This document shows positions 12,401 to 57,715 of a stretch of DNA of 63,133 nt, in pieces. Position 1 is the stretch's first letter, and each line of letters opens with the position of its first letter. Location: positions 1-63,133 of the forward strand of contig JAFZAL010000019.1 of assembly GCA_017557195.1 (NCBI GenBank), given 5' to 3'. The DNA comes from Thermoguttaceae bacterium (lineage in GTDB: Bacteria; Planctomycetota; Planctomycetia; Pirellulales; Thermoguttaceae). The translations under genes and the position numbers were made by a program. A model generated the notes under the pieces. It had not been told where the DNA came from and did no database searches. It saw only the letters and a list, made by a program, of their open reading frames with translations.

Positions 12401-15400
12401 AATTACAGACGCATTTTCACCGTTGACGAACCCCGTATACGTTACGGAATACGCTGGCGCCGCGTCGCCATAAATAATCGACAGATTGTCCGCCGATGCA
12501 GTCAGCGTCGCTTTGCCAATAGTCGAAACGATTTCCGAAGAAACGTAGTCTGCGTAGCCGGCGCGTTCAACTTTAACCCAGACGCTGTATTCGCCCGCAT
12601 TTGTCGCTTCGGGAAGCGTCGATGTCCACTGGACGCCGTCCGTTGAATAGGAAACGACGTCGTCCTGTTCCAGACCTGTAACAGACTGAATCAAGCCGTG
12701 AACGGCGCCGTCGTAGGTTCCCGTATAACCGCTAACCGAGACGCCCGAAATTTCACCCAAATTCGACGAAACCGTTCCGTTGATTTTGTATCGACCCAAC
12801 GAACCGTAATTGGAATACCCGAGTTTGGTCGCGCCGTTTTGATCTGTATACCAATACCCGCCGTCTGCGCCCAGTTCGCCCCGCGAGTCGCCGGAAATAA
12901 CCAGATAGTACGTTCCCGCGGCGGAAATGCTGCATTGAATTGTTGCATCGGATGACCAGTCGGAGTCGTAAACGTAAATGGAATTCCATTCAGAGTCGAA
13001 CAGCTCCGCCTTGACGTCAAGGTTGGTAAGATTGTACGAATACCCCATGTCGGCATACGCGTAACCGAAACTGTCAACCCCCTTGATTGTCAAATTGACA
13101 GAGCCAACGTCCAGCGCGAGCGTATAAACGTCGTTGTCCGGGTCAGAAAGCACAGCGTCCTCGCCTTCGCCAATCGTTTGACGTCCTATCATTCCGGTAC
13201 AGGAAATTGTCGTCGATTGTCCTAAGTCTGGAGCGGAATCGAGCAGAACCATTGGCGAACCGTCCAAAGTATGCGCGGCGTCTGTCGATACCGACGCGAC
13301 GTCGTCGTCAATAAAGGGGATATAGCTGGAAATAATCAGCAGTTCGTTTTGACATTCATCCAGCTTGTTGAGCGTCTCGCCGCTGTTGTTTGTAACAGTC
13401 TGAGCGCCAGGGTATTCGCCCATCGTCCACTGAACCATGCTGTAGGAATATCCAGACCCCATAATCGGCGCCCAGTATTCCCGACCGCTGAAGTAGACGC
13501 TGTTCCCGGAATAGACGCTGCTGCCGTCGTGATACAGTCCCAACGTGTGCCCAGCTTCGTGAGTTACGGATTCCGCATCGTACTTTTTGCCTCGCAGCCA
13601 AACATAGGCGACGTCTTCCACCATTTCCTGGAACGTCCCAACAAACGAAACGCCGGACGTTGAAACGTTTGAATACGTTGGCGACGAGTTGTCGGAATTC
13701 ATACCATAGTTTTTGCCGATAACGATTCGCTTACCCCATTGCAAATCGGATTCTGTGTTGTCGTACAGAATCGCGTCCAGACCAGGAAATGCGGTTGTAA
13801 CGTTGACGTCAAAGGGCGCGTAGTCCTCCGCTACTGTTCGCCAGATGTACAAAATGTCTGCCGCAGAATAATACGACCCGATGCTGGCGTCGACGCGGAT
13901 AATATCGCCGTATTCGTCTCCGTTCCATCCGGTAGCCGTAACAAGATGCCCCGTAAAGTCCAGATAAATCGTATAGTTGGAATCCGGCTTGGACGACAGA
14001 TTAAAGACGTTGGTTTCCTTGACGCCGTCACCGTCCAGGTCGACGTTGTAACCGGACAAATCCAGCGCGGCTGTCGAGCAGCTTGTTTCAGACCAGCTTG
14101 ACTTGGCGTTCGTGTCCGTTGCGTCCGCCTGAACGCGAGCCGTTACCGTAACGCCGTTTATAAGTTTGGGAAGAGTAAACGAGCGCGACGTCAGTCCGGA
14201 AATCGTATACCAGGGCGAGTCGGTCATCTCGTCGCCGGTTATCTGATACGTGATTGTATAAGTCGAAGCGTTTTCGACCGCGTTCCACGAGATTGTTACA
14301 TTTGTCCCGTTGACGCTTGAAGACACAACCGGGGCGTCAAGCGGCTGAGCAATCGTCTGCGATTCAAACGCGCCGAGGTCGATATTGGTATTGTTATATA
14401 TTCGGCTTGCGCCTACGATGTCTGTCGATTGACTTGTCAGCCCAAATTGAGCCGCAATGTCGTTGTCGCCGTCGTCAACGCCCAGCGAATTTGGCGTCAG
14501 CGCGAAGTCGGTCTTCAATGAATAATTCCCGCTGGCATTGATAAAAGTTGGAGAGCCGGAGGAATACCCGCCGTCAATCGTTTCGTCGCCTGGAGTAAAC
14601 GAGCCGTACATGGACGAAATGAGGTTGTTCTGTCCCCACATGGAGCCGGTGCCGGTGTCGCCCTGCATTTTGTACAGAGCCACTCCGCCATCCGCCTGAA
14701 CGATGGTATTGTACAAATAGGCGTTGCTGACGGAATATAGCGCTCCGCCGGCGCTCGACGCGTTTTTGGCAATTGTTACATTTACCAGTGTAAAGGTTGC
14801 TGAATTGTAGCTGTTGTTTTCGTTGGCGTAGTCGTAAACGTTGTTGTGAATTGCCGAGCCGTAATAGCCTGTGTTGTCATAAAAGAGGCTGTTGGTTATA
14901 ACCGTCGATCCGCAGTTGTTGAGCATAATCGCGCCGCCGCCAGTTGGAGCGGAGTTGCCGCTAAAGACGCTGTCGGAAATCGTCAGCGTGGAAACGTACC
15001 CTTCATGATAAATTGCGCCGCCCAAATAGCTGGCAGAGTTCGACGTAAATTCGCAGCCGGAAATCGTCATATTGCCGGTATTGAGAATCGCCCCGCCGTA
15101 GGTGTTATAGACGGTTCCGGAGGCGTTTGAGTCAAATTGAGAATCCGAAATTGTAACAACGCTGTCGGTCGACGCGATATAAATCGCCCCGCCGTACGCG
15201 TCTGAGCTGTTGTTGAAAATAACGGAAGACTCGATTGTCAAATCGGCTGTCGTATAGATTACCGAGCCGAATCCCGCATGATTGGCGTCGAACGTACAGT
15301 TAGCAATCGCGACGTCTCCCTCCGCGTAAATCGCCCCGCCCCAGCCTGCAATCGGCGTCCCGCCGGAAAGTTCCAGCGCGTTATCCGCGCCAGTAATCGT

Positions 15401-18400
15401 TAAGCCGTTAAGAGACAGCTCGCCGGATTCCGTTACGTCGAAAATCTGACCGCTGTTCCCGTTGATTGTCAATCCGGAACTCAACGCGGAAGCGTCGATC
15501 GAAACGGCTTTGTCTATCGACAACGCGCCAAAACCGTCAGACTGATTCAGCGTAATCGTCGACCCGTTCAAGCTGGAATCGAACGTAATCGTATCGCCGC
15601 TGGACGCGTACAGAATCGCTTCCCGAAGGGAAATCAAATAGTCGAATGGATCGACAACGTCGCTTAACGTTGTAACAACCGTTGACGGCGTCTCTTCGAC
15701 GACAAACTGAGTGCAGTTGATTGTATAGTTCCCCAACGAGCCGTAGTCGGAATAGTCGCCGGCGCTGTAGACGCCGTTGACGGGAGTACCCTTTCCTTCT
15801 CCGGTAACGCGGAGATAGTAAACGCCCGCAGTCGAGACCGTAATGGTTATCGTTTCGACAATGTCAGCGTCCTGCCCGGTATGGGGAGCTGCAGTCGCGA
15901 CGGCGCTGTAGTTGGAATCCGTATCGCAATAGACGTCTACGTGGGCGTTGAGGTTGGTTATATTGTTTTCCGCTGTTGACGAGTATTCCCCGCCGACGAC
16001 AAACGTATACGTTCCCCGTTCCAAACTCAGCTGATACCAGTCGTAATCTTTATCAATCTGACTGCCGTTATAAGCGTACGTAGACGACGAGCTGGTAATA
16101 ACGCCGGACGCGCAAACGCCAGTCGAGTCAACCGTCAAGACAGTAGCGGCAGCGGCAGAATTGTCGTTGTCCGTTTTGAACGACAAATGCTCGTTAATCT
16201 GGGCGATATCGTCCTGAGTCGTGTTGGTTGCGCCAGTATATTCGCCTTTGCTCCATTGAGAAAGAACCTGATGGTACGGATCGCCCATAATCGGTCCCCA
16301 GCCGCTGGTTCCGGAATAGTACTCAGCGCTGCCATAGCCGTCGTGTTTTAAACCGAGAGTGTGACCTATCTCGTGCGCTATTGCGTCGCCAACAAACTTG
16401 GGTTCATAATTGGAGAGACTGCCAGGAAAGACAAATGCGGGAGAATACTGTTTGGAGCTGTTTGACGTACCATAAAACCGGCTGAACACGCCCTCATAGG
16501 CAATGCCGCCGACGTTTAATCCCAAAACGTCTTCGCTCGTTCCGCCGATTGCCGCCCTCATGCCATACTTTTTATCGGAAGGGGGCGTAATCAACAGGTC
16601 GTCAAGAGACGTAAACTGCGTTGTTACGTCTACGTCGTAAATCGCGTAATCTTCACAAACCTCTCTCCAAATGAAATAAATGTCCTCTGCCGTAAACTCG
16701 TCCAGACACGACGGCGTAACAACGACGTCTCTGCTGTACGAAGTATTCCATTGCGTATCGTACGTTAAATGCCCGTTGAAGTCCAGATATATGGTCTTAC
16801 AGGAAGCATCCGTCGCCCAGTCCGCCTTGGAATGAAGGGTAAAGACGTTGGTTGACGTCCCGTCAATATCTACGTTCCACAACGACGTATCGACCGAAGC
16901 TATTGAATACGTAAAGACGTCTGACCACGCTGACCCGGACGCTGGCTTGTACTGATATTGAACCGTTGTGCCAGGAATCATGTCAAACGAGCAGTAGGAA
17001 TCCGTAAGGTTGAGCGTATAGTAGTTTGAATACGACGATCCGTTGACTTCCGTATTATTAAATTTGTAACGGAACGTATAGTCAGTCGCAGAGCCGATGT
17101 TCTGCCAGTCAAACGACAGAATCCCGTTAGAATAGATAACCGTCGGAACCATATAGGTCGTGTTGGAAATCAACGCTGCTTGAGTCGTCCTCGCCGTTGT
17201 GATAGCGTTCCCGTTGGAATCGACCAGCGTGTAATTGGACGCCAGAGCGTTTGCGCCGTTGTTCAAAGCGACGTCAAAGGTTGCGTACCGAAGCCCTGCC
17301 TGGTCGGAATCGAAAACGCCGTTGGCTGCCGACAGAACCAGGCTTTCCCCGTTCGCAACGCCGCTGAGCGTATACGAGTTGACCGTCGCAGAGAAATTGC
17401 CGGCTTCGTAATCCCGCCCGTTGGCAATCAATGAGGAAATTGTAACAGGGGCCGCTGAAATGACAAAAGAGGACGAGGTTGTATAGTCGTCGTATCCCGC
17501 CGCGCTGAAACAAATCGACAAATTGTAAACGCCGACGTTTTTCATCGTCGGGAACGCGTTGTTTGTCGTCGACCCGTTGTACGTAACCGTATAGGAATAA
17601 GAAACCGCCCCGGAGGTCGTAACGATCGGCGTTTGCACCGCGCCGTTGTAGAAAACGCCTGACCAGTCAACGTGAATCAAATCCTGAAGCGAACCGGTTG
17701 TCGCCGTTGTCGCGCTGACCGTTGACCAGAGGGAATCCTGATAGTCTTCCGACCCGGATGGCCCCAGAGCTTTCAAGCGGAAGTAATACGTCTGATTGGA
17801 GTCCAGCGAATTGAACGTCGCGCTGGTTGCAGACGAGTTCAGCGTTTGCGTTACAACGCCCGTCGAGAAATCCGAGTTGGTTGAGTATTCCAGCTGATAG
17901 CCGAAATTGTCAACAGCAGTCCAGCTTAAACTGATTGAATCGGACGTCGGGTCGCCATCAACAGACAGCGTTGGCTGATCCATGTAAATCGCAGGCTGAT
18001 ATTCAAACGCGCCGATGTCGACAGTAGAATCGTACGTTCTGACGCCAACTCCTGAAACGTCGTTGGGAATGGAATACCCGGACGCGGCGAGATAGCTGTT
18101 GTTTCCCGCGTCTTTCAAAACGGAATCCGAGACAAGCCGATAGTTGGGCGCGCTGACCAGATTCCCGGACGAGTCGAACTGCGGCGCGACCTTAAACCCG
18201 GCGAACTCGACTGACAAATCGCCAACATATTTGTTAAGGTATCCGGTCCCATAACGGGAATTGTTGAACGTCATCGTCCCCCAGTTGTAGAAGTCAGCAG
18301 CGCTGCTTGCTATGCTGGCTTCCCCCCCGTTCCCTGTAATAACGGAATTATAAAAATTGACCGTCGCAGTATCTTCGGCATTTGCCAAGCCGGCGGCGAA

Positions 18401-19423
18401 CCCGTACGAGCCGGATGACCAGTTCCCGGAGATTGTACAGTTGTATATATCCAGATTGGTTGCGGAATACGTGGTTGACGAACCGGAAATTGTGTAGGTA
18501 ATCGACGTATTGCAAATCCCGGCGCCGTAGCTCGAAGAAACGTTATTGACAATCAGACTGTTAACCAGCGTTGCCGATCCAAAATTAGCGATCCCGCCCT
18601 CGGCGTTGCCGGAAATTTCAGACGAAACGACGGTCAGCGTTCCCAAACTCTTAATCCCGACGTCGGCGTTGTCGCGGACGGTGGAATTCAGAATCTCTAA
18701 CGTATCCCAGTTAAATATCCCAACCTGAGAGTCAGCAACAGTACATCCGTCCAAGGTCAGTTTTCCAGACTGAATTGTAACCGCGCCCGCCGGGGAGCCG
18801 AATGTCGAGCCGGACAAATAGCGCGTTCCGCCGTTTGTCAGCGTCAAACCGCGAAGAGTAACCTCCGTATCCGCCCCCGTTATTGTGAAAATTCCGAAAA
18901 TGCCGTCGCCGACGATGGAAATGTTCATTCCCGACGCGTCAATCGTCAGACTTTTCTGAATGCTGAAAGAGTAAATGTCGCTGAGATACCCTGTCGTATA
19001 ATCCGACGTCGGCAGGGTCAGCGTCCCGCCCGCCAAAGACGGACTGAACGTAATCGTCCCGCCCGCATTGACGAAAGCAATCGCGTTCTTCAGGGCGGAA
19101 AAAGAAAGCTCGGAGACTTCGACCGTGTCGGAGGCAAGAAACGAGGAAGGCGAGCCGGGGTGCGTAAGCCCCCGGTAAAAATCGGAGTCAGAAGTTGTAT
19201 CCGATGCAGTAGACAGTAGGCAGTAGGCAGTAGCATTCTCTTGATTAATTGCTAATTGCTCATTGCTAATTGGCGCTTGCATCGGCGACACGCTCAGCAG
19301 ATCGCGGTCTTCCAGAACTTCCAGCCGACAACAGGTCGAATAATTGACACGCCGACTCCGCCGCTGGGGAGCGGGATTAAAAACAGCGTTCCATAGCCTC
19401 GACAACTCTGACCTGATCTTCAT
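6422..19423 (-). CDS. Giant modular surface protein: beta-helices, two metzincin domains, MBG repeats, dockerin
   Basis: I use the ATG with complement at 19421-19423 because GGAG stands 9 bases upstream; an in-frame TTG at 19438 is less likely. The 4333-residue product begins with a basic N-terminus and a planctomycete-type sorting region (LEVLEDRDLLSV, about 34-45). Next come a right-handed beta-helix (about 85-480), an FN3-like domain and a metzincin domain (HEIGHTLGLKHDG near 1015, Met-turn PIMG near 1045). A PPC-like domain, a second beta-helix (about 1260-1690) and a second metzincin domain (HEAGHTLGLYHDG near 1955, PIMG near 1990) follow. Eleven MBG units (about 2300-3955) and a pair of dockerin-type calcium loops (DLNCDERVDVND, DFDNSGSVNVDD, about 4110-4185) come after, then an acidic tail. 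Both zinc sites look intact, so it is probably a cell-surface or secreted protease-adhesin. The substrate is unknown. Confidence 0.85.
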   Translation of the reverse strand: MKIRSELSRLWNAVFNPAPQRRSRRVNYSTCCRLEVLEDRDLLSVSPMQAPISNEQLAINQENATAYCLLSTASDTTSDSDFYRGLTHPGSPSSFLASDTVEVSELSFSALKNAIAFVNAGGTITFSPSLAGGTLTLPTSDYTTGYLSDIYSFSIQKSLTIDASGMNISIVGDGIFGIFTITGADTEVTLRGLTLTNGGTRYLSGSTFGSPAGAVTIQSGKLTLDGCTVADSQVGIFNWDTLEILNSTVRDNADVGIKSLGTLTVVSSEISGNAEGGIANFGSATLVNSLIVNNVSSSYGAGICNTSITYTISGSSTTYSATNLDIYNCTISGNWSSGSYGFAAGLANAEDTATVNFYNSVITGNGGEASIASSAADFYNWGTMTFNNSRYGTGYLNKYVGDLSVEFAGFKVAPQFDSSGNLVSAPNYRLVSDSVLKDAGNNSYLAASGYSIPNDVSGVGVRTYDSTVDIGAFEYQPAIYMDQPTLSVDGDPTSDSISLSWTAVDNFGYQLEYSTNSDFSTGVVTQTLNSSATSATFNSLDSNQTYYFRLKALGPSGSEDYQDSLWSTVSATTATTGSLQDLIHVDWSGVFYNGAVQTPIVTTSGAVSYSYTVTYNGSTTNNAFPTMKNVGVYNLSICFSAAGYDDYTTSSSFVISAAPVTISSLIANGRDYEAGNFSATVNSYTLSGVANGESLVLSAANGVFDSDQAGLRYATFDVALNNGANALASNYTLVDSNGNAITTARTTQAALISNTTYMVPTVIYSNGILSFDWQNIGSATDYTFRYKFNNTEVNGSSYSNYYTLNLTDSYCSFDMIPGTTVQYQYKPASGSAWSDVFTYSIASVDTSLWNVDIDGTSTNVFTLHSKADWATDASCKTIYLDFNGHLTYDTQWNTSYSRDVVVTPSCLDEFTAEDIYFIWREVCEDYAIYDVDVTTQFTSLDDLLITPPSDKKYGMRAAIGGTSEDVLGLNVGGIAYEGVFSRFYGTSNSSKQYSPAFVFPGSLSNYEPKFVGDAIAHEIGHTLGLKHDGYGSAEYYSGTSGWGPIMGDPYHQVLSQWSKGEYTGATNTTQDDIAQINEHLSFKTDNDNSAAAATVLTVDSTGVCASGVITSSSSTYAYNGSQIDKDYDWYQLSLERGTYTFVVGGEYSSTAENNITNLNAHVDVYCDTDSNYSAVATAAPHTGQDADIVETITITVSTAGVYYLRVTGEGKGTPVNGVYSAGDYSDYGSLGNYTINCTQFVVEETPSTVVTTLSDVVDPFDYLISLREAILYASSGDTITFDSSLNGSTITLNQSDGFGALSIDKAVSIDASALSSGLTINGNSGQIFDVTESGELSLNGLTITGADNALELSGGTPIAGWGGAIYAEGDVAIANCTFDANHAGFGSVIYTTADLTIESSVIFNNSSDAYGGAIYIASTDSVVTISDSQFDSNASGTVYNTYGGAILNTGNMTISGCEFTSNSASYLGGAIYHEGYVSTLTISDSVFSGNSAPTGGGAIMLNNCGSTVITNSLFYDNTGYYGSAIHNNVYDYANENNSYNSATFTLVNVTIAKNASSAGGALYSVSNAYLYNTIVQADGGVALYKMQGDTGTGSMWGQNNLISSMYGSFTPGDETIDGGYSSGSPTFINASGNYSLKTDFALTPNSLGVDDGDNDIAAQFGLTSQSTDIVGASRIYNNTNIDLGAFESQTIAQPLDAPVVSSSVNGTNVTISWNAVENASTYTITYQITGDEMTDSPWYTISGLTSRSFTLPKLINGVTVTARVQADATDTNAKSSWSETSCSTAALDLSGYNVDLDGDGVKETNVFNLSSKPDSNYTIYLDFTGHLVTATGWNGDEYGDIIRVDASIGSYYSAADILYIWRTVAEDYAPFDVNVTTAFPGLDAILYDNTESDLQWGKRIVIGKNYGMNSDNSSPTYSNVSTSGVSFVGTFQEMVEDVAYVWLRGKKYDAESVTHEAGHTLGLYHDGSSVYSGNSVYFSGREYWAPIMGSGYSYSMVQWTMGEYPGAQTVTNNSGETLNKLDECQNELLIISSYIPFIDDDVASVSTDAAHTLDGSPMVLLDSAPDLGQSTTISCTGMIGRQTIGEGEDAVLSDPDNDVYTLALDVGSVNLTIKGVDSFGYAYADMGYSYNLTNLDVKAELFDSEWNSIYVYDSDWSSDATIQCSISAAGTYYLVISGDSRGELGADGGYWYTDQNGATKLGYSNYGSLGRYKINGTVSSNLGEISGVSVSGYTGTYDGAVHGLIQSVTGLEQDDVVSYSTDGVQWTSTLPEATNAGEYSVWVKVERAGYADYVSSEIVSTIGKATLTASADNLSIIYGDAAPAYSVTYTGFVNGENASVIDMIAAATSSYAQYNNVGSYTITASGATDNNYNFVYQTGTLTVGQKAVTVVFDGYSGLKYNGAVQTISATVSGIVNNDNAGLTMSYNKTVKDAGAYTAIASISNTNYVLTGTPTQNFSIGKATLTATADDQSIIYGDAAPAYTVTYTGFVNGENKSVIDTHAAATSSYAQYNNVGSYTITASGASDNNYDFVYQTGTLTVGQKAVTVSFDDYSGLVYNGQEQAISAAVSGTINNENAGLSLSYNKTVLDAGSYIATASISNGNYVLTGTTTQSFSIEKATLTAAADNKAITYGDASPAYTVTFTGFVNGEDESVINTKPSARSSYSQFSAVGQYSITVGRGSDNNYKFVYQPGTLTVDQKAVTIEFDDYDGLIYNGQEQGISATVSGTVNGDDAGVSLSYNKIAKDAGSYTATASISNGNYVLTGSTMQNFSIGKATLTATVDDKAITYGDAAPTYTVTYAGFVNGENASVIDTLAAATSNYTQFDNVGEYVITSSGASDNNYDFVYQTGMLNVGQKSVTVAFENYQGLIYNGQEQTISAAISGTVNGDDAGLSLSYNKTVKDAGAYTATASISNGNYVLTGSATQNFSIGKATLTATADSKSITYGDAAPAYTVTYTGFVSGENESVIDTKATVTSSYSQFNNVGEYAINVSGASDNNYNFVYQTGTLTVGQKAVTVAFDDYSGLVYNGQERTISATVSGTVNGDDAGLSLSYNTNVKDVGSYTATAAISNANYLLTGTTTQNFSIRKATLIAMADNKSITYGDAAPDYTVTYTGFANGENESVIDTKAAATSNYALFDNVGEYAISASGASDNNYDFVYQTGTLNVGQKAVTVAFDDYSGLVYNGQERTISAAISGTVNNDDPGLSLTYDKTVKDAGSYTATASISNTNYVLTGTTTQNFSIDKATLTAKADNQSITYGDAAPAFTVTFTGFVNGEDESEINVRPSARSSYTQFSGVGEYSISVGRGSDNNYKFVYESGTLTVEQKSVTVSFDDYEGLIYNGQEQTISAAISGTVNNDDAILLLTYDKTVKDAGSYTATASISNGNYVLTGTTTQNFSIGKATLTAMADDKTITYGDAASDYTVSYVGFLNGENESVIDTKAIAASSYTQFDNVGEYTITAFGASDNNYDFEYFTGTLTVEQKSVTVTFDGYDGLIYNGQERTISASVSGTVNGDDVCLSLSYNKTVKDAGSYTSTASISNANYVLTGPTTQYFSIGKATLTATADDKTIIYGDAAPEYTVSYVGFVNGENESVIDTKAIAASSYAQYSNVGEYTITVSGALDNNYDFNYQSGLLTVGQKTVTVSFDNYQGLIYSGEVQTISAEVLGTVNNDNAGLSLSYNKIVNDAGSYTATASVSNTNYVLTGATTQDFSIGKATLIATADDKSIIYGDAAPDYTVSYVGFVNGEDESVIDTLAAAASSYVQFDSVGGYAITASGASDNNYDFVYQSGTLTVGQKAVMVAFDDYDGLIYNGQERTISASFSGTVNGDNPGLSLSYDKTVKDAGTYTATASISNTNYVLTGTTEQNFSIGKATLTATADNQIITYGDAAPEYTVSYVGFVNGEDEAVIDTLATATSNYAQFDNVGEYVVTPSGAEDNNYDFEYQPATLTVELPPVSFYGTIQTENTKTDVENTTSADSIPESIASIDNWTGFYLEVWTDGYVVQSYTTSIVYDSTIYAPVLSSLQSPAGVDVVVNSIDDSDPRVTTMSITVSPAESSSPEEGTAFLMAQIEFEPVSSNGDPNGGLPINSTGNPISVGSNDVETAIVPYDYDLNCDERVDVNDFILFATVYGTNTDEASIDSSSLSDQMKQIACAADFDNSGSVNVDDFILFAINYGMVKNVASAPAALPAGLPTNLFAFLTPQTTVEHTAAVERTPSSVEPPETPAPVPLPPASVQTVESCQLKTTDVYTVASIERTTSVTAVPESDAIPVQTLDAALNSMDFTLQEADVNLNENAGLFISEESQTVSEVNLVDAVLDELDAEFEWEELI
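7555..12535 (-). repeat. 471-bp tandem repeat array encoding MBG/YDG-type domains
   Basis: Eleven copies of a unit starting KATLTA..D...I.YGDA are spaced by about 471 bp (157 residues), at roughly 12520, 12035, 11570, 11100, 10625, 10155, 9690, 9215, 8745, 8270 and 7797. Each unit pairs a YGDAAP half with a GQKAVTV..D.Y.GL.YNG half. The units are strongly alike at DNA level, so unequal crossing-over should change the copy number in frame. The third and seventh units from the N-terminus share a distinct variant (GRGSDNNYKF). Confidence 0.92.
19149..19272. repeat. Palindromic element plus two heptamer arrays inside the giant gene
   Basis: Three short repeat elements lie next to each other within codons of the giant protein. 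At 19149-19180 there is a 32-bp palindromic element identical to one in nifJ (55239-55270). At 19208-19233 there is a 7-bp array (AGTAGGC type), and at 19247-19272 a second 7-bp array (AATTGCT type). They encode a stretch between the sorting region and the first beta-helix (includes SNEQLAINQE and RGLTHPGSP) that fits no domain. Confidence 0.8.
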
Positions 19424-19501
19424 TATAAAAAACTCCAATTGCGAAGAAAAATCTCGAATTAAGCGCCCATAAAAAGTTCCCGTCGCCGGATAACCTTATA
19501 T

Positions 19502-40562: not shown

Positions 40563-41849
40563 ATGAAAAGAACCGCATTAGCTATCGCTGCATCGTTGTT
40601 GTTTGCTGTTGGCTGCGAACCGATTGCGCCAACTACCGCCCCTACTGGCACCGGTACGGAAACCGCGCCTGTTGAAGAAACTGTTGTTGAAGAAACCACC
40701 GTCGAAGAAACGGTTGTTGAAGAAGCTACCCCAATTGAAGAAACTACCCCAATCGAAGAAGCCGCTCCAATTGAAGAAGCCGCTCCTGAAGTTCCCGCTG
40801 TCGAAGAAGCCGCTCCCACTGAAGAAGCTGCTCCTGAAGTTCCCGCTGTCGAAGAAGCTGCTCCCGCTGAAGAAGCCACTCCCGAAGTCCCCGCTGAACC
40901 GGCTGTTCCTGCTGAAGAAGCCGCTCCTGAAGTCCCCGCTGAACCGGCTGCTCCCGCTGTAGAAGAAGCTGCTCCCGCTGAAGAAGCCGCTCCTGAAGTC
41001 CCCGCTGAACCGGCTGTTCCTGCTGAAGAAGCCGCTCCCGAAGTTCCCGCTGTCGAAGAAGCTACTCCTGCTGAAGAAGCCGCTCCTGAAGTCCCCGCTG
41101 TCGAAGAAGCTGCTCCCGCTGAAGAAGCTCCGGCTGTCGAAGAAGCTCCTGCTGCTGAAGCCGCTCCTGCCGCTCCGGCTGACGCTGTTTCCGCTTACGC
41201 TCCTGCCGCCGCTCTGGCGACTCAGGTTGAAACCTATCTGGAAGACATTGAAAAGAATCTGGCTGACGCTGACACCTATGCTGACAAGAAAGACGCCGTT
41301 GCGGAAGACGCTGCTGGTCTGACGGTTTTCTTTCTGGCTTTGGGTTTGAACGATCAGGACAGCCCCTATAAGGCGAAGGCTCCGAATCTGGTCAAAGCCG
41401 CTCAGGCGCTGGCTGCCGCTACCACTCTTGAAGAAGCCAAAGCTGCGTTAGAGTCCATTAAAACTGCTGAAGCCTCGACGGACGCTCTCGCCTGGACGAA
41501 GGTTGCTCCGCTGTCTTCCTTGATGAAGCAGGTTCCGGCTATCGACACGAAAATGAAGCGCACGATTCCCAAACGCATGGATAAAAAACAGGACGAATGC
41601 CTTGCCATGTGCGCCGCTGTCGCCGCTTTGATGCAGGGCAGCATTGCCAACGCCGGCGAAACTGAACAGCCGACCGAAACCGCTCAGTGGACGGCGTTCT
41701 CAATTCAGGGACGCGATGCCGCAGCCGCTATCGCCAAAGCTGTCGCCGCTCAGGATAAAGACGCTGCCGAAGAAGCCATGGCGACTCTGCACAAAGCCTG
41801 CGACGATTGCCACGCCGTTTTCCATCAGAACAAAAAAGCTGACGAATAA
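40563..41849 (+). CDS. Lipoprotein with Pro/Glu/Ala-rich spacer and C-terminal c-type haem motif
   Basis: Start choice: the ATG at 40563, 10 bases after GGAG, gives an ideal lipoprotein signal (MKRTALAIAASLLFAVGC, lipobox Cys18). The frame also opens at 40500 but would bury the signal. The 428-residue product has a spacer of about 180 residues built from EEAAPEVPAVEEA-type repeats. An alpha-helical domain follows (about 215-428) and ends with CDDCH (C413, C416, H417), a single haem-binding site near the C-terminus as in class II cytochromes c'. It is thus probably a membrane-anchored periplasmic electron carrier or sensor on a flexible stalk. A strong terminator follows. Confidence 0.8.
   Translation: MKRTALAIAASLLFAVGCEPIAPTTAPTGTGTETAPVEETVVEETTVEETVVEEATPIEETTPIEEAAPIEEAAPEVPAVEEAAPTEEAAPEVPAVEEAAPAEEATPEVPAEPAVPAEEAAPEVPAEPAAPAVEEAAPAEEAAPEVPAEPAVPAEEAAPEVPAVEEATPAEEAAPEVPAVEEAAPAEEAPAVEEAPAAEAAPAAPADAVSAYAPAAALATQVETYLEDIEKNLADADTYADKKDAVAEDAAGLTVFFLALGLNDQDSPYKAKAPNLVKAAQALAAATTLEEAKAALESIKTAEASTDALAWTKVAPLSSLMKQVPAIDTKMKRTIPKRMDKKQDECLAMCAAVAALMQGSIANAGETEQPTETAQWTAFSIQGRDAAAAIAKAVAAQDKDAAEEAMATLHKACDDCHAVFHQNKKADE
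40720..41170 (+). repeat. In-frame degenerate repeat encoding the Pro/Glu/Ala spacer
   Basis: Units such as GAAGAAGCCGCTCCTGAAG and GAACCGGCTG recur with 12-39 base steps. The encoded spacer is highly acidic and proline-rich, similar in character to the array at 1-255 though with another unit. Confidence 0.8.
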
Positions 41850-50529: not shown

Positions 50530-53079
50530 ATGCTAAAACGAATCTGTGCTGTTGCGCTGGCGCTGATTGGCGCGGCGTTCTGGACGTCTGCTATTAACGC
50601 AGAAGAAGCGGCTCCGGAGCCGTTGATGGAGTTGGTCGGTTCCCTGACCGGGTCTGAACTGAAAGCTGTTGGTCACGCTCTGCACAGCAGCGAGCTGAGC
50701 TTGAACGAGTCGTCTTTGCATGTCGAGAGTACGGGATCGGATCCGTATTGTCACTTTACCAAAGGGTTTCCCGCCGGGAAGTACCGGATGGTAATCCATT
50801 TCAATCAGAATATTGACTCCGTCGGGAAATGGGAGCTGTTCTGGGCAACGGCTCAATACGGATACCATTCCGGCGCGTCCGCCCGAAGCGGCGACCCCAG
50901 CATGGTCGGCGGCGCTCCGCAGGTTTATATTGACTTCGACGCCCACTCGGAAGTTAAGACGTTTCGTCTGGATCCGCCGGATCGGCTTGGCGATTGGGAT
51001 ATTTCCAAAATCGAGCTGTTCAGACGAACGGACAACCCGATTGTCATGGCAGAGAAAAAATCGTTTACCGACAAGGCGCAATTCATTCTGGAAAACAAGT
51101 CGGACGCGTCTGTTACAGCCGTCGTTTCTTCCTCGACCAACCAGACCAAGTCTACGGAAACATTCGCACCCGGCGAAAAGAAAACGTTCGTCGTGCCCGG
51201 TACGGGAATGTATTATCAGGTTCTGACGCTGACGGTCGAAACGGCGGGCGGATTCAAACCGTATACGATTCCCGGCTGTTCGATTGACTTAAACGTCAAC
51301 GCGGACGGCTGGAAAGAGCTTGCAACGTTGCAGGGCGTCTGGAAGTTCGCGCCGGAATCCAAAGGAAACGTCGCGGCGTTTTTCAAAACGAGAGAGTCAA
51401 CTCCCTGCGCCGTCTTGATTTCTTCCGCGCCACTGACGTCGGACAAAGTCCAGATGAAAGTTGACGGCGCTGCGCTGACGTTGACCCCAGCTGCCGATTC
51501 AACACTGCTTCCAGACGTTACGCTTTTTGTCATGGGAGAAATGACCAACGCGTCGTTCCCGGGCATTGAGATGTTGGAAAAGGGCGAGCAGAGTTCGTCC
51601 AAGCGGTCTGTCGAAACGCCGAAGTATTACCGCGTTCGACCGCCCAAGGACTGGGTAACGCAGACGACGATGTTGATTATTACCGATCGCTGCCGGGCGT
51701 CGATGCGCTGGAACGACGCGGAACGTCAGCCGGAATTTGCTGTGCCAGATTTCGTCGGCGGGACAGAGGCTGGCGGACGCATGGGACTGTATAATGACCC
51801 GACCGGGTCGGGATACATCTCAATTGTGATTGACTCAACCGACTGGGTGGAAGCCATTCTGCAAGACGTCAAAGCCGTCTACGGGGATTTGCCGGACGTT
51901 CCCGTCCCGCCGCGATCGGCGGAACAACAAGCGGAATTCTGTCGTGAGGCGTTCCAGACAAAACTGCGAAACGAAAACGGCTGGGGGCACTGCGTCGAAC
52001 CGCGCTGGGGTCGCGCCTGGTTTGCCGACCTGGCGTCGTGCGACTGGCGGTTAGCGAAAGGCGAAGTTGACTACGCCGACAAACCGTTTGGTCCCGGCGG
52101 CGGGCATGTAACCAACCCGTCCATCTTCTTTGTAACAGGACAGGCGCAGCGATACCTCGATCTGTACGGCCCCGGCGTCCGGAATCTGGTCAACAAAGCC
52201 AAAGAGAACCCGGCGTTCCCGTACTACGGTCCGTACGACAGAACGCATTGGGAACACGAAGCGCTGGGATTGATCGCCCGCAACGCCGCAACAGTTTTGG
52301 AATTCGCCTATACAACGGGCGACAAAGCCGCCTTGGACGCGGGGCTTGCGATGCTGGAAAAAGCAAAGCGGTTTACCGTGCCTCGCGGGGCGCAGACGTG
52401 GGAAATGCCGCTTCATACGCCTGACCCGCTTGCTGCCGCGTACGCGATTAAAGCCTTTGTCCGCGCCTACGAACTGACGGGCAACAAAGAGTATCTCGCT
52501 CACGCCAGAAAATGGGCGATTATCGGGATTCCGTACGTCTATTTGCGACCGGTGGGAAACGCAGAGAAGTCTCAGATGGCGGGCAGCCTTTACGCGACCA
52601 TCGGCGTCTACGGCGCGACGAATTGGAACGAGCCGTTTTGGATTGGGCGTCCGGTACAGTGGATCGGGACGGTTTACGCCTACGATTTGCTGTTCCTTGC
52701 CCCGTACGACAACTCGGTCGACTGGAAGAAGCTCTCGAGAGGAATTCTCGTTTCCGCTCAGTATCAGCAGTACCCGGACGGCGAGTTCAAGGGAACGCTG
52801 CCGGACTCGATTATTCCTCGTCTGGAACACCGATATCAGTGGAACATCAACCCGTCGGCGCTGATGTATATTCAATGGAAGCTCGATGGGGTTCAGGAAA
52901 ACCTGACGGCAATCGCCAACGCAAAATACCGCGTCGCCAGCCCGTTTGCCATGACGTTTGTCAACGAGAACGAAGTCCGCTTTGACGTCCCAAGCTGGAT
53001 GACCGGCAAACCGTTCCAGGCGCTTGTCAACGGACAGGTTCGCAACGTCGTCGGGGGCGAGAATTTGAAGCTGGAATAG
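50530..53079 (+). CDS. Secreted protein with alpha/alpha-toroid domain, possible carbohydrate-active enzyme
   Basis: The 849-residue protein has a signal peptide (MLKRICAVALALIGAAFWTS, cleavage near INAEEA). Residues about 40-160 look like a carbohydrate-binding-type beta-sandwich (YRMVIHFNQN, WELFWATAQYG), followed by a middle beta-rich region. From about residue 480 there is an alpha-helical domain with repeated Trp/Tyr-rich hairpins (GWGHCVEPRWGRAWF, YDRTHWEHEALGLIARNAATV), suggesting a six-hairpin alpha/alpha toroid as in several glycoside hydrolase and polysaccharide lyase families. I do not recognise an exact family, so the catalytic residues are not named. It stands alone behind its own promoter. 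Confidence 0.6.
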   Translation: MLKRICAVALALIGAAFWTSAINAEEAAPEPLMELVGSLTGSELKAVGHALHSSELSLNESSLHVESTGSDPYCHFTKGFPAGKYRMVIHFNQNIDSVGKWELFWATAQYGYHSGASARSGDPSMVGGAPQVYIDFDAHSEVKTFRLDPPDRLGDWDISKIELFRRTDNPIVMAEKKSFTDKAQFILENKSDASVTAVVSSSTNQTKSTETFAPGEKKTFVVPGTGMYYQVLTLTVETAGGFKPYTIPGCSIDLNVNADGWKELATLQGVWKFAPESKGNVAAFFKTRESTPCAVLISSAPLTSDKVQMKVDGAALTLTPAADSTLLPDVTLFVMGEMTNASFPGIEMLEKGEQSSSKRSVETPKYYRVRPPKDWVTQTTMLIITDRCRASMRWNDAERQPEFAVPDFVGGTEAGGRMGLYNDPTGSGYISIVIDSTDWVEAILQDVKAVYGDLPDVPVPPRSAEQQAEFCREAFQTKLRNENGWGHCVEPRWGRAWFADLASCDWRLAKGEVDYADKPFGPGGGHVTNPSIFFVTGQAQRYLDLYGPGVRNLVNKAKENPAFPYYGPYDRTHWEHEALGLIARNAATVLEFAYTTGDKAALDAGLAMLEKAKRFTVPRGAQTWEMPLHTPDPLAAAYAIKAFVRAYELTGNKEYLAHARKWAIIGIPYVYLRPVGNAEKSQMAGSLYATIGVYGATNWNEPFWIGRPVQWIGTVYAYDLLFLAPYDNSVDWKKLSRGILVSAQYQQYPDGEFKGTLPDSIIPRLEHRYQWNINPSALMYIQWKLDGVQENLTAIANAKYRVASPFAMTFVNENEVRFDVPSWMTGKPFQALVNGQVRNVVGGENLKLE

Positions 53080-53113
53080 GCGGCGAGCGGCGTCTGACCG
53101 TTAAAGCCCCTAG

Positions 53114-53141
53114 TTGACAGAAATCTTTTGTAAGGCATAAT
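53114..53141 (+). promoter_or_regulatory. Sigma-70 promoter of the SET-domain gene
   Basis: TTGACA (53114-53119) and CATAAT (53136-53141) are 16 bases apart. The transcript would contain the inverted heptamer arrays at 53151-53225 in its leader. Confidence 0.6.
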
Positions 53142-53150
53142 ATATAGAAA

Positions 53151-53225
53151 GGCAGTAGGCAAGAGGCAAGAGGCAGTAGTACGCAAGCGCCCCCAAAAAC
53201 TACTGCCTATTGCCTATTGCCTCTT
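53151..53225. repeat. Facing 7-bp repeat arrays forming a long stem-loop
   Basis: A GGCAGTA/GGCAAGA-type heptamer array at 53151-53180 is followed by its inverse (TACTGCC/TATTGCC) at 53199-53225. The two arms can pair over about 25 positions with few mismatches. The core between them, with the right arm, matches the element at 61861-61908 in reverse orientation. It lies in the leader of the SET gene. Confidence 0.8.
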
Positions 53226-53266
53226 AACTAACTACGCTCATTTTATAAGTTAAATCATAGACCACT

Positions 53267-53815
53267 ATGGCTGAATGCGTTTATCCGCTGGAAATTGAAA
53301 ACCTGGAACTGGACACGATTAAACTCGGCGACACGCCGTACGGCAAGGGCGTTTTTGCGTCCAAAAAGATCAAAGGCGGTATGCCGGTCGGGAAAATCGA
53401 GGGCGAGTTCCACCCTGATAAAAAGTACGATTCCGAATACTGTATGTCGTTTAACGACGGGGCTTTAGAACCGGAAGAGCCGTATCGGTTCGTCAACCAT
53501 TCCTGCGAGCCGAACTGCGAGCTTGTCGAGCTGGTCGTGGCGGATCAGAACTCCGGCAAGGTCTTTCACGAACTCTGGATTTACGCTCTGACCGACATTA
53601 AACGCGGCGAACAGCTGACTCTGGACTACGCCTGGCCGTATACGGACGCAATTGAATGTCAGTGCGGGTCGCCCAACTGCCGCGGCTGGATTGTCGCTGC
53701 CGACGAGGTCGAGAAAGTCGTCGCGAAGAAAGGACTCGGTTCGCGGGCGACGAGTTGCGAGTTGCGAGTAGCGAGAAAGAACCCACGGCAAAGAAAACTC
53801 GTAAAAAGGCGGTGA
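53267..53815 (+). CDS. SET-domain protein lysine methyltransferase
   Basis: The 182-residue protein has a compact SET domain: TPYGKGVFASKKI (AdoMet-binding start), RFVNHSCEPNC (catalytic-site NHSCxPN), LTLDYAW and the post-SET zinc-binding group CQCGSPNCRGW. SET proteins methylate lysine side chains; bacterial examples, such as the chlamydial one, act on histone-like proteins. The domain ends near residue 150. The last 30 residues are encoded across a 7-bp repeat (53752-53775), after which the frame meets TGA while a lysine-rich tail stays open in the -1 frame. The present frame therefore gives a truncated form, or the tail is reached by slippage. Confidence 0.85.
   Translation: MAECVYPLEIENLELDTIKLGDTPYGKGVFASKKIKGGMPVGKIEGEFHPDKKYDSEYCMSFNDGALEPEEPYRFVNHSCEPNCELVELVVADQNSGKVFHELWIYALTDIKRGEQLTLDYAWPYTDAIECQCGSPNCRGWIVAADEVEKVVAKKGLGSRATSCELRVARKNPRQRKLVKRR
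53752..53775 (+). repeat. Heptamer array (GAGTTGC) at the SET/tail junction
   Basis: Three units (GAGTTGC, GAGTTGC, GAGTAGC) plus GAG stand at the exact place where the SET frame and the lysine-rich frame exchange. One added unit, or two lost, would join the two frames without any stop codon. Confidence 0.85.
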
Positions 53816-54006
53816 AAAAGGCAACAGTTAAAAAGGCGACAGTAAAAAAGACCGCTGCAAAGAAGACAGTAGTGAAGAAAACAGAATCCGCTCCCGTCAA
53901 AAAGACGGCTAAAAAGGCGGTGAAGAAAGCGACCGTAAAAAAGACAACCGTAAAAAAGACTGCTGCTAAAAAGACGACAGCAAAGAAAGCAGTTAAGAAG
54001 AAATAA
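53773..54006 (+). other. Lysine-rich histone-H1-like tail in the -1 frame
   Basis: From 53773 the frame offset by -1 from the SET frame reads EKEPTAKKTRKKAVKK and continues with about 70 residues of KKATVKK, KKTAAKK and KKTVVKK repeats to a TAA at 54004-54006. This composition is that of the C-terminal domain of histone H1 and of bacterial H1-like proteins. It has no convincing start of its own: the ATG at 53656 in this frame lies inside the SET domain. A possible -1 slippery site A_AAA_AGG is found at the overlap near 53804-53811, just before the SET stop. Confidence 0.75.
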
Positions 54007-54110
54007 AAGGCAGTAGGCAATAGGCAGTAGTTTACGGGGGGCGGGTATTACCCGCCAAAAAACAAACAGTCTTTGATTTTCGCGGACAATGTCCGCTCCC
54101 CAGAAACAAC
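54007..54110. repeat. Heptamer array and two small palindromes between SET region and nifJ
   Basis: The GGCAGTA/GGCAATA array at 54009-54030 is followed by two palindromes. One is GGCGGGT-ATT-ACCCGCC (54040-54056). The other is GCGGAC-AAT-GTCCGC (54082-54096); the same 6-bp stem occurs again at 62007-62021. They look like small REP-type elements. Confidence 0.7.
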
Positions 54111-54157: not shown

Positions 54158-57100
54158 ATGCAAGACAAACAATATGCAACCATGGACGGCAACGAAGCGT
54201 GCGCTTACGTTGCCTATGCTTTTACTGAAGTAGCGGCGATTTATCCCATTACGCCGTCGTCGCCAATGGCGGGCAAGACAGACGCCTGGTCTGCCAAAGG
54301 GCGACAGAACCTCTTTGGTCAAACGGTTTCTCTGGTAGAAATGGAGTCCGAAGCCGGGGCGATCGGCGCGATTCACGGCTCGCTGGAAACGGGCGCGCTG
54401 TCAACCAGCTTTACGTCGTCGCAGGGCTTGCTGCTGATGATTCCCGTCATGCACCGAATCGCCGGCGAACGGCTGCCGGGCGTACTGCACGTGGCGTCAC
54501 GAACGGTGGGAACGCACGCGCTGTCGATTTTCGGCGACCATTCAGACGTTATGAACTGCCGTCAGACCGGGTTTGCGATGCTGTCGACGGCGTCCGCTCA
54601 GGAAATCATGGACTTGGCGCCGGTCGCTCATCTGGCTGCAATTAAGGGGCGAATTCCGTTCATGCACTTCTTCGACGGGTTCCGAACGTCGCACGAAATG
54701 AGCAAGGTGGAACTGGTCGACTACTCGCAATGGGCGCCGTTTATCGACGAAGAAGCTATTGAAGCGTTCCGCGCTCAGGCGCTTAATCCGGAACATCCCC
54801 GTCTTCGGGCGACGGTTCAAAACGGAGACGTTTACTTCCAGGTTCGCGAGGCGAACAACCCGTTCTACGCGGCTCTGCCGGGCATTGTCGATTCCTACAT
54901 GGAAGACATGGCGAAAATCACCGGGCGACGATACCATCTGTTTGACTACTACGGCGCGCCGGACGCTGACCGCGTGGTGGTTGCCATGGGGTCTGTTTCC
55001 GGCGTTATCAAGGAAATTGTCGACTATCTCAACGGGAAAGGCGAGAAAGTCGGCTTCGTTCAGGTGCATCTGTACAGACCGTTCAGCGCGGAGCATTTCC
55101 TGCAGGCTCTGCCGAAAAGCGTCGAAAAGATCGCTGTTTTGGATCGATGCAAAGAAATGGGCGCGACGGGCGAACCGCTGTACCTTGATGTTTGCGCGGC
55201 GTTGAGATTAGGGAATAGGGAATTAAACCGCGATGCGGTTTTACCGGGGGCTTACGCACCCCGGCTCGCCCTCGTTGGCGGGCGCTATGGTCTATCCAGC
55301 AAAGACGTCGATCCGGCGCAAATCAAGGCGGTGTTCGACAATCTCAAGCTGGACCAGCCGAAAAACAGCTTTACGATTGGAATTACGGACGATGTAACAG
55401 GACTGTCGCTGCCAATGGACGAGCCGATTTATCCGGACGACGAGAATCTCGTTTCCTGCAAATTCTGGGGATTGGGGTCAGACGGAACCGTCGGCGCGAA
55501 CAAGAGTTCCGTCGAGATTATCAACGCTCATACTTCCAAGTTCGCGCAGGCGTATTTTGAATACGACGCGAAAAAGTCGTACGGCGTTACAAAGTCGCAC
55601 CTGCGATTCGGCGACAAGCCGATTCGGTCGTCGTACTACGTCAAATGCGCGGACTTCATCGGATGTCACAACGAGACGTACCTCAAACAGTACGACGTCG
55701 TCGGGGAGCTCAAGCAGGGCGGAACGCTGCTGCTCAATACGTCTTGGACGCCGGAAGAGCTGGAACGGGAACTCCCCGCTCGGGTTAAGCGGGTTTTGGC
55801 GCAGAAGCAGGCGAAACTCTATACAATCGACGGCGTTTCCATTGCCGGCAAGCTGGGGTTGGGAAACCATTACAATCTGGTATTGCAGTCCGCGTTCTTT
55901 ACGCTGGCGAAAATCATTCCGTCACAGGAGGCGGCAGTCTACATGAAAGAGCTTGCCAAACGGACCTATTTTGCCAAAGGCGAGGAAGTCGTCAACAAGA
56001 ATATTGCGGCAATCGACGAAGGCGCGGCGAATATAGTTGCCGTTCCGATTCCCGATTCCTGGCTGACGGCTCAAGACGAGGATGTAACAGTTGACGAATC
56101 TCGTCCCGCGGTTGTCCGGAATCTGGCTGACCCGATTAACCGTCAGAAGGGCGACGATTTACCTGTCAGCGCGTTCAAGGGTTATGAAGACGGCGTTATC
56201 GACATGGGCTTGACCGCCTACGAAAAGCGCGGCATCGCCGTTCAGGTTCCCGTCTGGGACTCGTCCAAGTGCCTGCAATGCAACCATTGCTCGTTGGTCT
56301 GCCCGCACGCGGTTATTCGTCCGTTCCTGCTTACAGAGGACGAGGCGAACAGCGCGCCGGAAGGGTTTGAGTCCATTCCCGTCAAGACGAAACCGGGATT
56401 GCGATATACGCTGCAAGTCAGTGGGGCGGACTGCACCGGCTGCGGCGCGTGCGTCAATGCGTGCCTGGCGAAAGACAAAGCGCTGTCGATGAAGCCGTAT
56501 CACGAAATCGGTCCGCGAACGGAGCAATGGAACTACGCTCTCAATCTGTCCGAAAAGGGCGACGTGTTCAACCCATGGACGATCAAAGGCAGTCAGTTCC
56601 GCCAGCCGTTGGTGGAATTCTCCGCTGCGTGCGCCGGGTGCGGCGAAACGCCTTACGCCAAGCTGTTGACTCAGCTTTTCGGCGACCGGGTATACTGGGC
56701 GAACGCGACCGGCTGCTCTCAGGCGTGGGGCAGCCCGATGCCGGGAATTCCGTATACAACCAACCGTTACGGACGCGGTCCCGCCTGGAGCAACTCTCTG
56801 TTTGAAAACAACGCGGAGTTCTCGCTCGGCATGGCTCTGTCCGTCAAAAAACAGCGCGAGATGCAGAAGATGACCGCGGAACAGATCCTCGAACTGGACG
56901 TTCCCGCTGACCTGAAATCCTCCATCGAGGCGTGGCTGGCAGCGTATAATGACTTTGAGCAGTCAAGAGTTACTGGCGACGCGTTGGTTTCACAATTAGA
57001 AAGCTGCGAAGCGAGTTGCGAGAAAGCGCAAGCGCTGGTCAAGAAGTTACTTCGTCACAAAGACCAGTTTGCCCGCAAAACGTTCTGGATGTTCGGCGGG

Positions 57101-57715
57101 GACGGCTGGGCGTACGACATCGGGTTTGGCGGGCTGGATCACGTCCTGGCAAGCGGCGAGAACCTCAACGTGTTTATTGTCGATACGGAAGTCTACTCCA
57201 ATACGGGCGGGCAGTCGTCCAAGGCAACGCCGATCGGCGCAGTCGCCCAGTTTGCCAGTTCCGGCAAGAAAAGCCCCAAAAAGGATTTGGGCGCCATCTT
57301 CATGACGTACGGAAACGTTTACGTGGCGCAGGTCGCGATGGGGGCTGACCCGAACCAGCTTATCAAGGCGATTAAAGAGGCGGAAGAATTCGACGGACCG
57401 TCAATTCTCATCGCGTACACGCCTTGCCAGGCGCACGGAATCAAGTGCGGAATGGGCAACACTCAGCTGGAAATGAAGCGCGCGGTCGAAGCCGGGTACT
57501 GGCGTCTGTATCGATACAACCCGACCAAAGAGAAGCCGTTCACGCTGGACTCCAAAGAACCGACGATGTCGTTTGACGAGTTCCTCGACGGGGAAACCCG
57601 GTACGCGTCGCTTAAGAGAACCTTCCCCGCCAACGCGGAAGAGTACTTTACCAAAGGCGCCGACCTCGCCAAAGAAAGCTATCAGAAGTACAAAAAGATG
57701 GAAGATAACCAGTAA
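54158..57715 (+). CDS. nifJ: Pyruvate:ferredoxin (flavodoxin) oxidoreductase
   Basis: The 1185-residue single-chain enzyme has all expected domains. The N-terminal pyrimidine-binding domain has ACAYVAYAFTEVAAIYPITP. Two [4Fe-4S] ferredoxin motifs follow, CLQCNHCSLVCPH and CTGCGACVNACLA (about 700-770). The C-terminal TPP domain has CAGCGETPYAKLL, ATGCSQAWGSPMP and GDGWAYDIGFGGLDH. It oxidises pyruvate to acetyl-CoA and CO2, reducing ferredoxin, in the cytoplasm of anaerobes. One oddity: residues about 350-372 (RLGNRELNRDAVLPGAYAPR) are encoded by a heptamer run plus a palindromic element also present in the giant protein gene. This lies between the usual LYLDVCAAL and GGRYGLSSKD segments. A terminator follows. 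Confidence 0.95.
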   Translation: MQDKQYATMDGNEACAYVAYAFTEVAAIYPITPSSPMAGKTDAWSAKGRQNLFGQTVSLVEMESEAGAIGAIHGSLETGALSTSFTSSQGLLLMIPVMHRIAGERLPGVLHVASRTVGTHALSIFGDHSDVMNCRQTGFAMLSTASAQEIMDLAPVAHLAAIKGRIPFMHFFDGFRTSHEMSKVELVDYSQWAPFIDEEAIEAFRAQALNPEHPRLRATVQNGDVYFQVREANNPFYAALPGIVDSYMEDMAKITGRRYHLFDYYGAPDADRVVVAMGSVSGVIKEIVDYLNGKGEKVGFVQVHLYRPFSAEHFLQALPKSVEKIAVLDRCKEMGATGEPLYLDVCAALRLGNRELNRDAVLPGAYAPRLALVGGRYGLSSKDVDPAQIKAVFDNLKLDQPKNSFTIGITDDVTGLSLPMDEPIYPDDENLVSCKFWGLGSDGTVGANKSSVEIINAHTSKFAQAYFEYDAKKSYGVTKSHLRFGDKPIRSSYYVKCADFIGCHNETYLKQYDVVGELKQGGTLLLNTSWTPEELERELPARVKRVLAQKQAKLYTIDGVSIAGKLGLGNHYNLVLQSAFFTLAKIIPSQEAAVYMKELAKRTYFAKGEEVVNKNIAAIDEGAANIVAVPIPDSWLTAQDEDVTVDESRPAVVRNLADPINRQKGDDLPVSAFKGYEDGVIDMGLTAYEKRGIAVQVPVWDSSKCLQCNHCSLVCPHAVIRPFLLTEDEANSAPEGFESIPVKTKPGLRYTLQVSGADCTGCGACVNACLAKDKALSMKPYHEIGPRTEQWNYALNLSEKGDVFNPWTIKGSQFRQPLVEFSAACAGCGETPYAKLLTQLFGDRVYWANATGCSQAWGSPMPGIPYTTNRYGRGPAWSNSLFENNAEFSLGMALSVKKQREMQKMTAEQILELDVPADLKSSIEAWLAAYNDFEQSRVTGDALVSQLESCEASCEKAQALVKKLLRHKDQFARKTFWMFGGDGWAYDIGFGGLDHVLASGENLNVFIVDTEVYSNTGGQSSKATPIGAVAQFASSGKKSPKKDLGAIFMTYGNVYVAQVAMGADPNQLIKAIKEAEEFDGPSILIAYTPCQAHGIKCGMGNTQLEMKRAVEAGYWRLYRYNPTKEKPFTLDSKEPTMSFDEFLDGETRYASLKRTFPANAEEYFTKGADLAKESYQKYKKMEDNQ
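55204..55275. repeat. Repeat-element insert inside nifJ
   Basis: GAGATTAGGGAATAGGGAATT (7-base period) is followed by a 32-bp palindromic element (55239-55270) identical to 19149-19180 read in reverse, then codons rejoin the conserved enzyme. The net effect on the protein is an insertion of roughly 17 residues, in frame. Confidence 0.8.

Follow-up and report, generated by a model that had tools for sequence, protein, structure and literature searches.

A SET-domain open reading frame (ORF) followed by a short run of 7-bp repeats and then, in the -1 frame, by a stretch encoding a lysine-rich tail raises the question of whether the repeats switch a bacterial methyltransferase between two forms or have interrupted a gene that is normally read as one. 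The locus lies in the window, the whole 63,133-nt stretch of DNA that was analysed, which is one contig (C154) of the 4.18-Mb draft planctomycete genome G000 (239 contigs). A preliminary description had proposed a phase-variable SET methyltransferase with a histone H1-like tail. We compared the locus with three other species of this rumen genus (G001, G002 and G003), so that the comparison covers four genomes, one per species, all drafts. Congeners in public collections are MAGs from goat and other gut or rumen-type material labelled Thermoguttaceae or uncultured planctomycete. The SET domain, the array and the tail were all found in the arrangement described (Table 1).

Table 1. Features of the SET locus and its immediate surroundings, in window positions.
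Feature	Position	Strand	Remarks
Inverted pair of AGGCAAG/AGGCAGT-type arrays, intergenic, upstream of SET	53150..53232	+	RNA fold -34.9 kcal/mol, z -5.24
SET-domain protein-lysine methyltransferase ORF (predicted)	53267..53815	+	182 aa as read in this assembly; PF00856, E 1.8e-14
Pfam SET domain	53342..53629	+	Residues 26-121 (hmmscan); motifs RFVNHSCEPN, QLTLDYAW
Post-SET-like cysteine motif CQCGSPNCRGW	53657..53689	+	Direct sequence reading; kept in relatives
Heptamer array ACGAGTT-GCGAGTT-GCGAGTA-GCGAG in linker	53750..53775	+	26 nt replacing GCG of relatives (+23 nt)
Remaining linker	53776..53790	+	15 nt shorter than relatives, in-frame loss; KEP-TA for KENPDDSAPV (codon-level comparison)
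Lysine-rich H1/Hc2-like tail (KKTRKKAVKKATVKK...)	53791..54006	+	-1 frame relative to SET; stop TAA 54004-54006
A_AAA_AGG run, proposed slippery site	53803..53809	+	Judged not functional
GTGA: tail-frame GTG overlapping SET-frame TGA	53812..53815	+	Read from sequence; possible reinitiation point, candidate
AGGCAGT-type heptamer array	54008..54030	+	Directly after tail stop codon

The SET ORF matched the PF00856 profile with 54.5 bits, exceeding the curated cut-off of 22.4. Both the NHSCxPN and DY catalytic/SAM motifs (RFVNHSCEPNC and QLTLDYAW) and the post-SET cysteines (CQCGSPNC) are present and kept in the relatives, and the best solved relatives of the domain are SET domains of the KMT2A/MLL1 type (E 6e-12). 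By family membership, the product is thus predicted to be a SET-domain lysine methyltransferase. Residues 1-158 share 91-98% identity with the SET halves of the congeneric ORFs, and the shifted frame runs into a TGA 22 residues beyond the linker. G000 encodes a second SET-domain protein (L046, C124:56074-56253) in a 306-aa open frame, downstream of which an HNH nuclease-like stretch was noticed by eye (CQVCGRQL...LEVHHETPLGARKG...LIAVCPNCHAVLH).

In all three congeners SET and tail form a single uninterrupted ORF (245, 241 and 283 aa; L009, L010 and L011, respectively) devoid of heptamers, indicating that in the genus the gene is normally, and constitutively, a fusion; the frame break is confined to G000 among the four genomes. 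The preliminary description had envisaged either homologues carrying both parts in one frame or relatives keeping them in separate conserved frames, and it was the former that was found, in three of three congeners. The tail as a separate conserved gene is ruled out, being fused in all of them.

The tail of the window, encoding KKTRKKAVKKATVKKATVKK... between 53791 and 54006, sits in a -1 frame that stays open from upstream, through the heptamer array, to its TAA. It is a weak match to Histone H1-like Hc2 (HC2, PF07382), with 20.8 bits against a curated cut-off of 40, whereas the G001 tail scored 41.6 bits, over the cut-off; the sequence is of low complexity. Of the changes relative to the G002 tail, 28 are synonymous and 9 nonsynonymous (dS 1.06 and dN 0.057, values influenced by recombination between repeats in so repetitive a sequence), compared with dS 0.19 and dN 0.008 for the SET half. 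All 31 lysines are kept, 10 of them through synonymous AAA/AAG changes, the nonsynonymous changes sit on the A/T/V/S/I spacers, and no stop codon has arisen in the window's tail frame. These data show that the tail frame has been kept by strong purifying selection and that the tail was translated in its own frame during most of the time since the species of G000 and G002 split. The frame break must therefore be recent, polymorphic or a consensus error; old decay is contradicted by the selection on the tail.

Searches at family, order, class and phylum level found no KKAT-type tail on other SET homologues. Close homologues from the same family, order and class extend no more than about 50 residues beyond the SET/post-SET region, some with short K/R-rich ends, and C-terminal extensions among all the homologues found are mostly shorter than 50 aa, a few distant ones reaching 72-98 aa and not being lysine-rich; some class-level homologues end in K/R-rich stretches of 24-40 aa. 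The tail as an ancient trait of planctomycete SET proteins was rejected, since the KKAT type is absent from close homologues outside the genus. KKTAEKK/AKKTTAKK tails resembling that of the SET protein occur on other proteins of the genus, so the tail seems to be a recurrent module. Long (A/E)KKT(A/V)(E/A)KK tails are carried by L096 and L103 (proteins of about 460 aa, apparently one conserved gene in two species), L100 and L101.

In Chlamydia pneumoniae, too, a SET methyltransferase goes together with lysine-rich H1-like proteins: cpnSET binds both Hc1 and Hc2, and Hc1 is methylated by it (PMC3980110). In the chlamydial cpnSET/NUE and Hc1/Hc2 system enzyme and H1-like proteins are separate, whereas in this genus they are predicted to form one polypeptide. 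The SET-H1-like fusion appears to be restricted to this planctomycete genus, and calling it a new type of chromatin regulator in bacteria overstated the case in light of cpnSET, even though the chlamydial partners are separate proteins. The covalent joining of SET and H1-like tail suggests that lysine methylation acts at the nucleoid in these planctomycetes, in parallel to cpnSET/Hc1.

The frame break itself resides in the linker, which is 33 nt long in the congeners (SRAAKENPDDSxPxKKTRKK, with SLA for SRA in G003) and 41 nt in the window. This net gain of 8 nt is made up of +23 nt from the array and -15 nt from the linker loss, and alignment placed no heptamers at the site in G001, G002 or G003. 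The repeat arithmetic given earlier proved correct, as gaining one heptamer or losing two would bring SET and tail into frame with no stop between. With three units, the array is one short of the common in-frame four-unit form. An array with the same GTAGCGAG end and one extra unit (L080) is in frame and reads SCELRVASSE, as the SET gene would with one more unit.

Heptamers are by no means particular to this gene. A lag-7 array detector returned 6 arrays for the window and no array for its shuffled version; run at lags 4-6 and 8-14 as controls, it gave 0-2. Exact matches to GCGAGTTGCGAGTTGCGAG numbered 176 in G000 and 97, 109 and 68 in the three congeners (overlapping registers counted). Outside the genus, 36 further genomes from the family and order were searched; 35 lacked GCGAGTT arrays, and the sole exception had four overlapping matches at one place. 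Further dispersed types are GGCAGTA, GGGAGTA, AATTAGC and AGGAGTT, and intergenic arrays often occur in inverted pairs. These counts indicate a genus-specific dispersed repeat rather than one specific to the SET gene. A conserved composite element with the core CGCAAAGCGNNNNACAANATNCT was considered as the main vehicle and discarded, there being only 8 exact copies in the four genomes; a second allele sought in viral contigs gave no match.

Many arrays lie inside genes. Simple ORF calling on sampled genome stretches placed 31 of the 78 G000 arrays and 14 of the 30 from the relatives within long ORFs, where they translate as SRNSQLATRNS or SCELRVASCE-like peptides. The four-unit form of the GCGAGTT array (about 30-31 nt) accounted for 25 of 27 arrays spanned by an open ORF vs 8 of 24 intergenic ones (Fisher p 1.7e-5), a difference to which the open-ORF definition of intragenic contributes by itself favouring frame-neutral lengths. 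GCGAGTT arrays coding SRNSQLATRNS or SCELRVASCE were seen in conserved G000 genes at L057, L059, L062, L064, L077, L080, L083, L085, L086, L091 and L092. PFOR (nifJ) has two insertion sites, 66/93/96/84 and 72/120/138/78 nt long across the four species; every length is divisible by three, and no stop occurs. A 78-nt in-frame insertion is present in GH127 of G000 only, an array divides an RsmE-type RNA methyltransferase into two Pfam stretches, and AMP-binding and CoA-transferase proteins contain arrays as well. The PFOR coordinates are L051:4272-4346 and 6082-6169, L055:9648-9742 and window 54158-57715, and the orthologous sites hold different heptamer types in sister species. Such in-frame entry of 7-bp repeats into housekeeping genes, at sites varying between sisters, amounts to a natural experiment on the tolerance of proteins to insertions that derive from repeats. 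Arrays as breakers of genes elsewhere found no second case: ten same-strand pairs of flanking ORFs, assigned with Pfam, were unrelated families or had no match, and none were halves of one gene.

Comparable repeats are known from Xanthomonas (GGGAATC) and Nostoc (GGGGAYT), which have 186 and 183 dispersed heptamer arrays per genome, respectively, mostly of four units and often in inverted pairs (PMC4692102). This genus likewise has few-unit heptamer arrays genome-wide, partly as inverted pairs. The Xanthomonas and Nostoc arrays are, however, mostly intergenic (7-11% overlap ORFs), whereas in-frame copies in conserved genes are frequent here, and several heptamer types coexist in this genus, unlike in those genomes. 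In this respect the arrays in PFOR, GH127, RsmE and AMP-binding genes resemble Rickettsia palindromic elements (RPE), small repeats that occur between genes and are also fused, in frame, into conserved protein-coding genes (PMC2229807), and the spread of heptamer arrays into coding sequences may be regarded as a bacterial analogue of RPE. RPE are, however, palindromes of 105-146 bp with terminal inverted repeats, whereas the insert in the SET gene consists of one array of direct repeats, 26 nt long, and other arrays of the genus are sometimes in composite pairs. The tandem repeats of Borg elements also lie in ORFs, are under selection and add disordered segments to proteins (PMC9879509), but they arise locally and independently, whereas the heptamer family is common to many sites.

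We consider it probable that the locus is a constitutive, genus-restricted fusion of SET domain and lysine-rich tail, struck in this genome by the dispersed heptamer repeat; the frame break gives the impression of a chance hit by a spreading repeat, not of a built-in on/off switch. An array would have entered the linker of the fusion gene, and the loss of one unit from a presumed four-unit insertion would then probably have put the tail out of frame recently, which would be the simplest history; the SET array has three units vs the usual four. Judging from family membership, the SET domain would methylate lysines, and the H1/Hc2-like tail would tether the enzyme to DNA or itself be the substrate. 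The allele in the assembly would yield an enzyme that lacks the tether and ends in a short basic stretch (RKNPRQRKLVKRR). If a unit were gained or lost by chance, the break could be undone, making low-rate reversibility possible.

The strongest competitor, which we regard as unlikely, is an error of consensus or assembly, by which the real array would be frame-compatible and the fusion made constitutively. The strong selection on the tail frame speaks for it, as do the other intragenic GCGAGTT arrays, in frame and nearly always of four units, and the draft state of an assembly in 239 contigs. The same assembly, however, resolves four- and five-unit GCGAGTT arrays and an eight-unit GGCAGTA array elsewhere, any read easily spans a 26-nt array, and three-unit arrays are common between genes.

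That the array is a selected switch seems doubtful to a greater degree still. On this reading, slippage of the heptamers would move a population to and fro between two enzymes, a free SET methyltransferase without the tail and a SET-H1-like one tethered to DNA, and the arrays in dozens of genes would be distributed potential frame switches, an extension to which we give equally little credence. The restoration of frame by +1 or -2 units, the intact and selected state of both halves and the differing array lengths between sites are all in keeping with it. A known heptanucleotide locus of this kind is hmwA of Haemophilus influenzae, where 13-24 heptanucleotide copies (constructs and strains) in a promoter tract give demonstrated phase variation (PMC8262952); the two loci share a 7-bp tandem repeat whose copy number could alter expression. 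The SET locus, however, has three copies, one imperfect, in a coding linker, against that long promoter tract (13-24 copies at hmw1A), and is known from one genome per species. Moreover, the tract is missing from the gene in all three congeners, and the repeat is a genus-wide dispersed element that indiscriminately enters housekeeping genes such as those for PFOR and RsmE. For the Xanthomonas heptamers, too, the authors thought phase variation unlikely, the repeats not being tied to surface or adaptation genes (PMC4692102). Of the original proposal, then, the union of SET domain and H1-like tail in one protein held up, borne out by the single ORF in three congeners and the selected tail frame, and the dedicated repeat switch did not; a heptamer array found in a gene of this group is not, by default, to be taken for a phase-variation switch.

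Termination and reinitiation at GTGA would release a free H1-like peptide beside a separate SET enzyme, as in Chlamydia. The overlap of stop and start, with AAGG just upstream, invites this reading, but we judge it very improbable, given that the GTG is an ordinary valine codon found also in the G001 fusion, that AAGG and GTG are only about two nt apart and that the congeners have no such arrangement. Scarcely credible is programmed -1 ribosomal frameshifting or transcriptional slippage at A_AAA_AGG, which would produce the fusion from the present sequence and which draws on the selected tail and on a run of five A that is correctly framed and lies close ahead of the stop: the X_XXY_YYZ pattern fails as YYY is A,A,G and AGG cannot re-pair as AAG, RNA folding found no stimulatory structure downstream (z 0.39), five A are short for transcriptional slippage, similar AAAAAGG runs recur along the tail, and the relatives do not need a frameshift. 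The run also lies in the SET frame slightly off the place first assigned to it (53804-53811; see Table 1).

Upstream of the fusion gene, the very stable hairpin predicted for the inverted pair of arrays is possibly a terminator or RNA element; similar inverted pairs are present in many intergenic regions, and the heptamer types upstream of SET differ among the four species. Synteny with G002 breaks just upstream of SET (window 53064-53265 vs G002:C23 62316-87321), where about 25 kb of G002 separate the sequences flanking a 200-nt intergenic stretch of the window, with heptamer arrays at both breakpoints. Repeats of other kinds occur in the window as well. Dense in-frame repeats (periods 15-111) at 40670-41176 code for acidic low-complexity sequence of the EEAAPAEEA type, and about 10.5 copies of a 471-bp repeat (7569-12520) lie in a very large minus-strand ORF (6422-19438, 4338 aa), which is conserved in the congeners and has heptamer arrays near its N-terminus.
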